Below the pieces are notes generated by a model. It did no database searches. It was not told the DNA's origin and saw only the letters and a list, made by a program, of their open reading frames with translations. The position numbers were made by a program, and so were the translations under genes. Below are positions 33,127 to 61,921 of a stretch of DNA of 64,000 nucleotides, one piece after another (within the stretch, counting starts at the first letter, position 1; the number at the start of each line of letters is the position of its first letter). Source of the DNA: an uncultured Anaeroplasmataceae bacterium (GTDB lineage Bacteria > Bacillota_I > Bacilli_A > Acholeplasmatales > Anaeroplasmataceae); contig CALVBA010000002.1 in the NCBI GenBank assembly GCA_944325695.1, positions 1 through 64,000 of the forward strand. The letters run 5' to 3'.

Positions 33127-33155
33127 ATTATATGAAAAAAGACTATTAAATAGTC
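33127..33155 (-). promoter_or_regulatory. SigE-like promoter of spoIIID, built into the spoIIQ terminator
   Basis: GACTATT, a 14-nt spacer and CATATAAT resemble SigE elements (GMATATT and CATACANT, one mismatch each). The -35 falls in the spoIIQ terminator stem. The implied transcript starts about 10 nt before the spoIIID ATG. Confidence 0.55.
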
Positions 33156-33156
33156 T
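33135..33156 (-). terminator. Terminator of spoIIQ
   Basis: The stem AGACTA/TAGTCT with six T after it on the minus strand overlaps the spoIIQ stop codon. Confidence 0.75.
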
Positions 33157-33802
33157 ATTTTTCTTCTGTATTTAAATCATTAATTTTTTGACCAATGACT
33201 TTGCGTGGATCAATTGTATTACCATTTAATACTGTTTTTAAATGAATGTGATTTTTAGCATCAACATCGATAACAGATGTTCCTGAAGTTCCTATAATTC
33301 CATTAGTTTTAACAGAATCACCAACTTTAACATTTACCTCAGATAAAGAGCGATAATGACTTACTAATCCATTATCATGTTTAATCACAATTTCCATTCC
33401 ATAACCTGGGTATTCTTCTACCGATTCAACAACACCTTCATAGATTGCAAGACATGCAAAGTTAACATTTTCTTCCGTTGAGTAGCTAATTCCCATTGAT
33501 TTAATCATTTCATTGTCGGATATGATTACTGATTGTTCTTTTTCATCTTCACTTGTTCCATAAAAATATCTTGTGATAACAAAATCACCTTTTAATGGTA
33601 ATTTGATTTCACTATCTAATTTATCTGTTGAAATCGGATTACTTGTAGATGGAGTATCATCGGGCGGACCATCAACACCTGCATCTGGACCACCTAAATT
33701 TAAAGTGATTAAAATAATACTTGAGAGGATTAAAGCACATAATCCTGCAAAAACGAGAATTTCTTTTCGATTTTTTAAAAAAGCCTGATATTTATCTTTC
33801 AA
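33155..33802 (-). CDS. spoIIQ: SpoIIQ, forespore M23 peptidase-like protein (degenerate site)
   Basis: A 215-residue protein with one membrane helix (EILVFAGLCALILSSIILITL) and an external LytM/M23 domain. The late HIHLKTV motif keeps the H-x-H pair, but the position of the usual first zinc ligands (HxxxD) reads MGISYST, without His or Asp. Bacillus SpoIIQ also lacks the first ligand and is a structural partner of mother-cell SpoIIIAH, holding the engulfing membranes together. The start is TTG after GAGGTGAAAAT. It is immediately upstream of spoIIID. A murA/spoIID pair, common upstream in Bacillus, is absent here. Confidence 0.92.
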   Translation of the reverse strand: MKDKYQAFLKNRKEILVFAGLCALILSSIILITLNLGGPDAGVDGPPDDTPSTSNPISTDKLDSEIKLPLKGDFVITRYFYGTSEDEKEQSVIISDNEMIKSMGISYSTEENVNFACLAIYEGVVESVEEYPGYGMEIVIKHDNGLVSHYRSLSEVNVKVGDSVKTNGIIGTSGTSVIDVDAKNHIHLKTVLNGNTIDPRKVIGQKINDLNTEEK

Positions 33803-60013: not shown

Positions 60014-60473
60014 TAAAATTCTCCTTTATAAATTCATATATGTAGGATTTAAAAATAACATCATTGGTTTCGTCAAAATATGGATAAATAATAGAAAAAA
60101 AGTTTGTACCCATCCCTGTTTCAATTTCCACTAATAATGTTAATCCTTCATACGTTTTAACTTCTTTATTAGTATATTCTTTATAATTAATAATATGATT
60201 TTTGAATTCGATTTTAATTGTTTTTTTAAACTTAGCTAAATTATTTTCTAATATTTCTAAATTATTTTCTATATTAAAAACAAAAACTTCAAAATCAGTA
60301 TCTTCTTGTATCTGAATAAAATTTAAAACTTCATCTTTAACTCTTTCTTTTATTTTTTGATCCAAATAACTATCTGAATTAGCCACTACTCTAACGGCAA
60401 ACATATTATTATTAGTTCTTTTTAAACATATTAAAGCAATTATTAAAAGAAGCATATATCCCCATTTTCTCAT
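60006..60473 (-). CDS. spoIIR: Stage II sporulation protein R, SpoIIR
   Basis: A 155-residue secreted or anchored protein: an N-terminal hydrophobic segment (YMLLLIIALICL), then the SpoIIR hallmark VRVVANSDSYLDQKIKERVKDEV and a late segment EGLTLLVEIETGMGTNFFSIIYP. In Bacillus it is made in the forespore under SigF and signals SpoIIGA to activate SigE in the mother cell. It is shorter than the Bacillus protein (about 220). Its upstream region has a SigF-like promoter placed in a hairpin. Confidence 0.85.
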   Translation of the reverse strand: MRKWGYMLLLIIALICLKRTNNNMFAVRVVANSDSYLDQKIKERVKDEVLNFIQIQEDTDFEVFVFNIENNLEILENNLAKFKKTIKIEFKNHIINYKEYTNKEVKTYEGLTLLVEIETGMGTNFFSIIYPYFDETNDVIFKSYIYEFIKENFNA

Positions 60474-60480
60474 ACAAAAA

Positions 60481-60509
60481 CCCCCTTAAATCTATTATGT
60501 CTAAGGGGG
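60481..60509 (-). promoter_or_regulatory. Hairpin hiding the spoIIR ribosome binding site / terminator
   Basis: CCCCCTTA (60509-60502) pairs with TAAGGGGG (60488-60481), 8 perfect bp including five G-C, followed by TTTTTG. The 3' arm is the spoIIR ribosome binding site, 7 nt before the ATG. RNA that reads through from tsaC would be terminated or left untranslated. Confidence 0.65.
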
Positions 60510-60521
60510 ATATTTTTATAC
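60494..60521 (-). promoter_or_regulatory. SigF-like promoter of spoIIR in the hairpin loop
   Basis: GTATA, 14 nt, then AGACATAAT, one mismatch from the SigF pattern GYATA-N14-16-GGNNANANT. The -10 falls in the loop, and the start would be near 60487. Transcripts from it would lack the 5' arm of the hairpin and keep the ribosome binding site free. Confidence 0.55.
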
Positions 60522-61072
60522 TATAAGATTTTGTTTATTTCTTCTAAAGTGATCATACCTTCACGAAGTATATGTAAATTATCACTTGTTGCATCAATAA
60601 CTGTCGAAGCTACATCACTAAAATTATCATCATCGCTTATTATATAATCAGCATCTTTAAAAGTATCTTTAATCTCATCTAAGTTATTTAGTGGCGGAAA
60701 ACCTGAAATATTGACACTAGATGTTGCTAAAGGTCCATTTTCCTTGATAATACTAATCGCTAATGGATTAGCAGGAATTCGCACACCAATGGTGTGAGCT
60801 ATCTTGTTGTAAGGATGATTCTTTTTAACTGGTAAAATTAAAGTCAATCCTCCTGGAAAAAAATTTTTCATTATTTTAATAGTTTTATCATTCAATATTG
60901 CAACTTCTGCAATTTCTAATATAGAAGAAAATAAAACTGACATTTGTTTGTTTTTAGGACGTTTTTTTAGATCATAGACTTTCTCATATCCTTTTAAATC
61001 TAAATACTTGCATCCAATTCCATAAACCGTATCGGTATTAAAAATAACTACTTCTCCATCTTTTAATTGCAT
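60521..61072 (-). CDS. tsaC: Threonylcarbamoyl-AMP synthase (TsaC/YrdC domain)
   Basis: Makes the threonylcarbamoyl-AMP used for the t6A37 modification of tRNAs decoding ANN codons. The 183-residue protein has FNTDTVYGIGC, DLKKRPKNKQMSVL (KRxxxKP-like) and PLATSSVNISGFPP. It lacks the extra C-terminal Sua5 domain. It follows prmC by 3 nt. Confidence 0.92.
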   Translation of the reverse strand: MQLKDGEVVIFNTDTVYGIGCKYLDLKGYEKVYDLKKRPKNKQMSVLFSSILEIAEVAILNDKTIKIMKNFFPGGLTLILPVKKNHPYNKIAHTIGVRIPANPLAISIIKENGPLATSSVNISGFPPLNNLDEIKDTFKDADYIISDDDNFSDVASTVIDATSDNLHILREGMITLEEINKIL

Positions 61073-61075
61073 TTT

Positions 61076-61921
61076 TTATCCCTCGATTTTCACAATTGTC
61101 ATTCGATCTTTTCCTTGCATATCTTTTAAAACTTCTACCGAACTTGTCGGAAAATATGTTTTAACTAATGATATCATTTCATCTTTTTTATTATAAGCAT
61201 GTTCAAAACAAATCATTGCCTTAGGATTTAAAATTTCTTTACATCCACTTAAAATTTCACGATAAAATTTTAATCCATCTTCCCCTCCAAATAATGCGAC
61301 ATGCGGTTCATTATCCTTAACTAATGACTCCACATCTTCATCATCAGGAATATATGGAGGATTAGATACAATAATATCAAACTTCATATTTTTTAATGGT
61401 TTTAACATATCTCCACATAAAATATTAACTTTAGCTCCTAAGTTATTAGCATTCTCAAAAGCTACATTTAAAGCATCTTGAGAAATATCAGTTATCGTTA
61501 CATTCATATTAGGCTCTTCTAATGCCAAAGTAATACCTAAACATCCACTTCCAGTACCGATATCTACTAAATTAACTTTTTGACCATTAAAAAATTCATC
61601 ATAATTTAATAAAACATTTTCAACTAATTCTTCTGTTTCAAAGCGTGGAATTAAAACATTTTCATTAACTTTGAATTGGTATCCATAAAAAGTTTCGTAC
61701 CCCATAATATATTGAACTGGTATATTCAATTCTAAATATTGATGACATAGTTCTTTAAATGAATTTAATATATCATCATTTATTTCTTCATCCATTGAGG
61801 CATAAAGCAATGCATTTTCCATTTTTGAAGCGTGCATTAAAAGTAAAATTATCGCGCTTTCTTCTTTTTCACAATTAATAGCTTTTTTTTGCATTTCCGC
61901 TAATATTTCTCTATATTTCAT
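61076..61921 (-). CDS. prmC: Peptide chain release factor N5-glutamine methyltransferase
   Basis: Methylates the Gln of the GGQ motif in release factors. The 281-residue protein has an N-terminal helical domain, the SAM-binding VDIGTGSGCLGITLA, and the NPPYIP catalytic motif. It lies next to prfA, its substrate gene, as in most bacteria. Confidence 0.96.
   Translation of the reverse strand: MKYREILAEMQKKAINCEKEESAIILLLMHASKMENALLYASMDEEINDDILNSFKELCHQYLELNIPVQYIMGYETFYGYQFKVNENVLIPRFETEELVENVLLNYDEFFNGQKVNLVDIGTGSGCLGITLALEEPNMNVTITDISQDALNVAFENANNLGAKVNILCGDMLKPLKNMKFDIIVSNPPYIPDDEDVESLVKDNEPHVALFGGEDGLKFYREILSGCKEILNPKAMICFEHAYNKKDEMISLVKTYFPTSSVEVLKDMQGKDRMTIVKIEG

Follow-up and report, generated by a model that had tools for sequence, protein, structure and literature searches.

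Cell-type-specific activation of sigE depends on confining SpoIIR synthesis to the forespore, and many Bacilli carry spoIIR right behind a housekeeping gene, prmC or tsaC. This raises the question of how leakage of spoIIR expression from its neighbors could be prevented. The locus considered here lies in a window of 64,000 nucleotides, the whole stretch of DNA analysed, from an uncultured Anaeroplasmataceae bacterium. On the minus strand of the window, prmC (release factor methyltransferase, 61076-61921; TIGR03534, E 2e-78) stands upstream of tsaC (L-threonylcarbamoyladenylate synthase, 60521-61072; TIGR00057, E 2e-49), which is followed on the same strand by spoIIR (60473-60006, 155 aa, ATG at 60473-60471). 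SpoIIR is identified by PF09551 (47.2 bits, cut-off 25; E 4e-12), while the stricter NCBI equivalog model TIGR02837 matches at E 2e-10, below its equivalog cut-off. The gene upstream of spoIIR is tsaC in 18/18 loci of the window's family.

Between tsaC and spoIIR (60521-60473, minus strand), a forespore-type promoter, GTATA-N14-AGACATAAT, is interleaved with a hairpin, CCCCCTTA-N13-TAAGGGGG, and followed by TTTTTGT-ATG of spoIIR. In full, the string upstream of spoIIR reads TAG-TATA-AAAATAT-CCCCCTTA-GACATAATAGATT-TAAGGGGG-TTTTTGT-ATG. The tsaC stop codon ends at 60521, which is also the first base of the -35 element GTATA (60521-60517). The promoter spacer, AAAATATCCCCCTT, contains the 5' arm of the hairpin (60509-60502), and the -10 element AGACATAAT (60502-60494), whose promoter columns are conserved in relatives, sits in the 13-nt loop (60501-60489) except for the first base, shared with the end of the 5' arm. 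The 3' arm (60488-60481) holds the spoIIR Shine-Dalgarno sequence, and a T5 tract (60480-60476) directly behind the stem makes it terminator-like. The stem has 8 bp, five of them G-C, and no Rfam family reaches its gathering score for 60400-60620. An earlier note on this DNA had described the 8-bp hairpin, its 3' arm as the spoIIR ribosome binding site and the GTATA-N14 promoter, all of which are exact in sequence and coordinates; its placement of the -10 in the loop holds but for the one base shared with the 5' arm.

The reading favored here, with a probability of roughly three in four, is that this element is a lock against read-through, combining a block of translation with probable attenuation where a U-tract follows, that would keep SpoIIR silent outside the forespore. 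In RNA reading through from prmC-tsaC, CCCCCUUA would fold onto UAAGGGGG and bury the spoIIR Shine-Dalgarno, and with the U-tract behind it the hairpin probably acts as a terminator or attenuator as well. The forespore-type promoter is placed inside the hairpin element, with the 5' arm in the -35/-10 spacer and the -10 in the loop; its transcript, predicted to start at about 60489-60486, would begin past the 5' arm, the hairpin could then not form, and spoIIR would be translated. SpoIIR triggers sigE activation, and restricting it to the forespore is the presumed purpose of the lock; that read-through occurs, and that it is blocked in the cell at translation or transcription, we infer. The earlier note had proposed a double lock of this kind, and the computed evidence supports the idea through sequence and layout, recurrence in relatives, a covarying stem, the position of the 5' arm in the promoter spacer, exchange with separate terminators, and presence at spoIIR and sigG together with absence at gpr.

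Taken alone, the window stem is only suggestive, because it is unremarkable against shuffled sequences although it ranks high in its genome. A 71-nt fold gave a z of -0.98 against shuffles, having been folded on the plus strand rather than the spoIIR strand. On the spoIIR strand the Shine-Dalgarno is buried equally deep in 22/100 shuffles, since the G-run finds a partner in the C-run even after shuffling; for the same reason, single-locus shuffles were dropped as proof of the hairpin. A scan of 81 pieces that together cover about 96% of the genome (1.286 Mb, small overlaps counted in) placed the window hairpin third by stem score among 985 Shine-Dalgarno-bearing gene starts, and first among the subset in which GNATA precedes the 5' arm. 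The shuffle values are what one would expect from a functionless chance complement between a G-rich Shine-Dalgarno and a C-rich stretch, an explanation already disfavored by the rank in the genome and made very improbable by recurrence, covariation and context in 184 loci. The genome's strongest Shine-Dalgarno stem (13 bp) belongs to a transposase-like helix-turn-helix ORF (contig G000:C18, L308:1152-1409, minus strand). Insertion sequences are known to be protected against outside transcription, to which this stem may be likened.

The comparison across relatives is decisive and, judged on the sequences, takes the pattern far beyond chance. SpoIIR is present in 18/55 genomes of the window's family (f1; further f-numbers are anonymous family labels) and, at E 0.001, in 100/395 genomes of the class, some of these matches being weak or split; a phylum-level search gave the same class again. 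The window SpoIIR protein as query found no match in the contigs of named genomes, whereas an alignment of other families did find SpoIIR in named Bacillales. Across these loci the layout is shared despite unrelated arm sequences, as in ATACCCCCT..AGGGGGTAT (L012), CTCCCAAG..CTTGGGAG (L018), TTCACCTACTTTTC..GAAAGGTAGGTGAA (L042), AAAATCACCTTTTC..GAAAAGGTGATTTT (L049) and ACCACCAAT..ATTGGTGGT (L098), and among named genomes in GCGCCGTCC..GGACGGTGC of Geobacillus (L173) and TCCCGCCCTT..AAGGGCGGGA of Tuberibacillus (L179). Geobacillus, Anoxybacillus and the B. subtilis group have this layout or some variant. By eye, the close relatives B. mojavensis (L181) and B. tequilensis (L185) seem to have differing 5' arms (CGTTCC with GGAACG; CTCTCC with GGAGAG) facing the same downstream stretch.

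Accessibility was expressed as the cost of opening the Shine-Dalgarno in read-through RNA, set against 100 dinucleotide shuffles of the upstream part. The Shine-Dalgarno is buried at the 5% level (at most 5/100 shuffles as good) in 98/184 spoIIR loci, where about 10 are expected, and at most 1/100 shuffles is as good in 76/184. The control gene starts of the same loci gave 23/170 at a 4% level (Mann-Whitney p 1e-15 against spoIIR). By group, the 5% threshold is reached in 14/18 loci of f1, 6/7 of f12, 10/11 of f19 and 10/12 of f9, and less often in f14 (14/45), f15 (2/8) and named isolates (29/63). Removing the upstream part lowers the median opening cost in f1 from 13.5 to 2.9 kcal/mol. The thresholds and the grouping of loci were settled in the course of the analysis, which made some twenty statistical comparisons on overlapping data, and the locus statistics ignore kinship of the sequences. 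Exceptions exist: 16 f14 loci with a short gap keep the promoter and have neither terminator nor hairpin, and L014, within the window's family, is without the lock. The earlier note had held that loss of the stem in close relatives while the promoter stays would tell against it; such loss is seen in L014 and in many f14 loci; some of the latter possess a separate terminator, and in others nothing visibly replaces the stem.

The two arms change together, as the earlier note's suggested search for compensatory changes would have it. The MAFFT family alignments A3 and A5 had the arms out of register, and therefore the pairing of each locus's own spacer region with its own Shine-Dalgarno was compared with its pairing to those of relatives; the f9/f19 alignment (A4) was usable. 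Own pairs are more stable than swapped ones in f1 (-17.2 vs -12.8 kcal/mol), f9+f19 (-10.2 vs -7.4), f14 (-8.1 vs -5.3) and Bacillales (-13.5 vs -10.5), with 0/5000 permutations as good in each; the effect is weaker in f12 (222/5000) and f15 (8/5000). With reversed arms the effect disappears in f9+f19 and f14 but persists, reduced, in f1 and Bacillales, where composition therefore explains part of the pairing. The f9/f19 alignment contains 12 two-sided changes (0/500 shuffles) and stem pairs that include the types A-U, U-A, C-G and G-U, and sliding the register lowers the score in every case; since the sequences are related, these and the other changes are not independent events. Covariation also bears on whether the inverted repeat is instead a DNA operator for a repressor, given that a perfect dyad over a promoter is operator-like too. 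However, the arms differ between genera and change together, where an operator would keep its sequence, one-sided changes from G-C to G-U and from A-U to G-U occur, and the 3' arm always covers the Shine-Dalgarno. This least probable of the alternatives was rejected on arm turnover and the G-U pairs.

The read-through lock further calls for a promoter whose transcript leaves the 5' arm behind. The sigF promoter consensus is GywTA-N15-GgnrAnAnTw, and the -35/-10 of spoIIR fits it both in the family loci and in Bacillales. GNATA occurs in the right region in 18/18 loci of f1 (2.8 expected), 23/23 of f9+f19 (4.4 expected), 41/45 of f14 (6.4 expected) and 6/7 of f12, while Bacillales have GTTTA-N15-GNCCANACTG in 41/63 (3.4 expected). 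In 86/88 hairpin loci the -35 precedes the 5' arm, which at its inner end often extends into the start of the -10. With the 5' arm in the promoter spacer, promoter-derived RNA should therefore lack most or all of it.

The sigma factor that reads this promoter is presumably the single sigF/sigG-type sigma of the genome. No sigF was found in this genome, which is 97% complete; the one sigma of this type (G000:C5:36922-37674, L249) occupies the sigG position behind spoIIGA and sigE, and a search with the sigF model gave the same single sigma in five other family members. For this reason the promoter is classed as forespore-type and not as sigF-dependent. The "SigF-like" label of the earlier note is thus borne out as to the motif, but not as to the factor. 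At G000:C5:65847-66251 (L339), the genome has spoIIAA-spoIIAB followed by a spoVAC-like gene, with no sigF between; SpoIIAB may control a sigG-type factor that does the work of sigF too.

Folding with and without the 5' arm, a check proposed in the earlier note, gave the predicted difference at the window locus: opening the Shine-Dalgarno costs 7.4-7.5 kcal/mol in read-through RNA and 3.1-3.4 kcal/mol in RNA starting at 60488-60487, where a weak fold persists. Since the shortened RNA can still pair part of the Shine-Dalgarno, the hairpin might be thought to damp spoIIR translation within the transcript of its own promoter, for which a small hairpin at the sigG ribosome binding site is an experimental precedent (PMC5942855). 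This is very unlikely: the 5' arm, which is conserved, falls within the promoter spacer, so that transcripts from the spoIIR promoter would not contain it.

A stronger competitor is that the hairpin is mainly the intrinsic terminator of prmC-tsaC, which overlaps the spoIIR promoter and ribosome binding site owing to the short gap, with the hiding of the Shine-Dalgarno as a by-product. TTTTT precedes the start codon in 14/18 loci of f1 and 13/23 of f9+f19, compared with 30/752 other genes of the window genome. Furthermore, hairpin and separate terminators are mutually exclusive in the class: 0/13 loci with a separate upstream terminator-like hairpin reach the 5% threshold vs 59/92 without (p 7e-6), and within f14 the counts are 0/9 and 14/36 (p 0.04). 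In some loci, such as L003 and L004, a separate terminator is accompanied by a pairing stem that is still present, below the threshold, and in the contigs of named genomes (Bacillales) the trend is weaker and not significant (7/22 vs 32/57, p 0.08). On the other hand, TTTTT precedes the spoIIR start in 0/7 loci of f12 and 3/63 of Bacillales, yet the stem still covers the Shine-Dalgarno there. Moreover, although the window has the stem and the T5, its 13-nt loop is long for a terminator and a terminator scan made no call. Termination as the main function is therefore unlikely, if less so than the other alternatives. The U-tract pattern makes attenuation likely in f1 and f9+f19 and not general, so that the termination claimed by the earlier note has support where a U-tract follows (14/18 family loci) and none in Bacillales (3/63). 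The common element across the groups is the hiding of the Shine-Dalgarno.

The read-through lock also agrees with genomic context. The hairpin accompanies gaps to the upstream gene of at most 70 nt (65/94 vs 30/83), the upstream gene being tsaC in all f1, f7, f9 and f19 loci and prmC in 33/45 f14 loci and in 46/75 named-genome loci with an upstream ORF. At sigG, behind spoIIGA-sigE, the threshold is reached in 18/23 loci; at gpr, another forespore gene, it is reached in 4/26, with a median of 2.7 kcal/mol and some gpr starts uncertain. Most family sigG loci (L235-L248) show AGTCTTCC..GGAAGATT around CATATTA, and the window genome's own sigG (L249) has no clear stem.

Similar arrangements were noticed at other genes of the window genome. 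In the window itself, an M23-peptidase gene (33155-33802, minus strand; PF01551 only) that seems to resemble spoIIQ carries GTATA, and its Shine-Dalgarno is covered by a 6-bp stem, ACCTCA..TGAGGT, whose loop contains CATAATA, although no ORF on the same strand ends closer than 308 nt upstream. The spoIIR layout is found again, as a second strong case, at spoIIIAH (PF12685; G000:C10, L364:6907-7383, minus strand), with a 9-bp stem over the Shine-Dalgarno, a T-tract and GTATA upstream. In B. subtilis, spoIIIAH is a mother-cell gene.

Taken together, the hairpin offers a concrete answer to how spoIIR leakage could be prevented, and it would explain why the forespore -35 overlaps the end of the upstream gene with no terminator between them. 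A broader proposition, for which we see about as much for as against, is that promoter-in-hairpin insulation is an old and general safeguard of the forespore switch genes sigG and spoIIR across Bacilli, in which the sequence turns over while promoter spacer, hairpin hiding the ribosome binding site and, often, terminator continue to overlap three ways or give way to a separate terminator. The danger averted, on that proposition, is that SpoIIR made by read-through would activate sigE in an inappropriate cell or at an inappropriate moment. The layout may also serve as a signature for finding other genes that are harmful when mistimed.

In the literature searched, which left most subscription papers out of reach, no report of such a hairpin at spoIIR was found, and the sole paper joining spoIIR, hairpin, ribosome binding site and forespore concerns sigG (PMC5942855). 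In B. subtilis, according to the passages of that paper citing Masuda 1988, a hairpin in spoIIG read-through RNA is proposed to block translation of sigG (spoIIIG); RNA that starts at the sigG promoter cannot form it. The spoIIR locus is alike in that a forespore gene stands behind another operon with a ribosome-binding-site hairpin that would form only in read-through RNA, and in that the forespore promoter has the 5' arm within its spacer, as seen here at sigG loci L220-L224. It differs in that sigG lies behind spoIIGA-sigE, with sporulation-specific upstream RNA, whereas spoIIR follows the housekeeping genes prmC/tsaC; moreover, no U-tract was seen at Bacillales sigG, unlike at the window spoIIR. 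The small hairpin at the sigG ribosome binding site (Mearls 2018, PMC5942855) likewise hides the ribosome binding site of a forespore gene, but it lies in the own-promoter transcript, where it damps translation 2-4-fold, while the spoIIR element should be absent from the corresponding transcript. Intrinsic terminators share with the spoIIR element of the window's family the G-C-rich stem and T-tract, but the spoIIR stem additionally holds the Shine-Dalgarno and the promoter, has a long loop, and is without the T-tract in f12 and most Bacillales. The same logic is described for I-TevI, segB, soc, e and other genes of phage T4, where early or middle read-through RNA hides the ribosome binding site and RNA from the late promoter is made without the 5' part (PMC2988022); there the control is temporal and not cell-type specific, and no homology is involved. 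The spoIIR hairpin would belong with these RBS-hiding read-through hairpins, given that its stem pairs the ribosome binding site, its 5' arm lies upstream of the predicted start and its arms are conserved as pairs. The principle has already been proposed for sigG and described for T4, and what is added here is spoIIR as its probable bearer, for which no prior description was found, in a setting where the upstream RNA comes from housekeeping genes.
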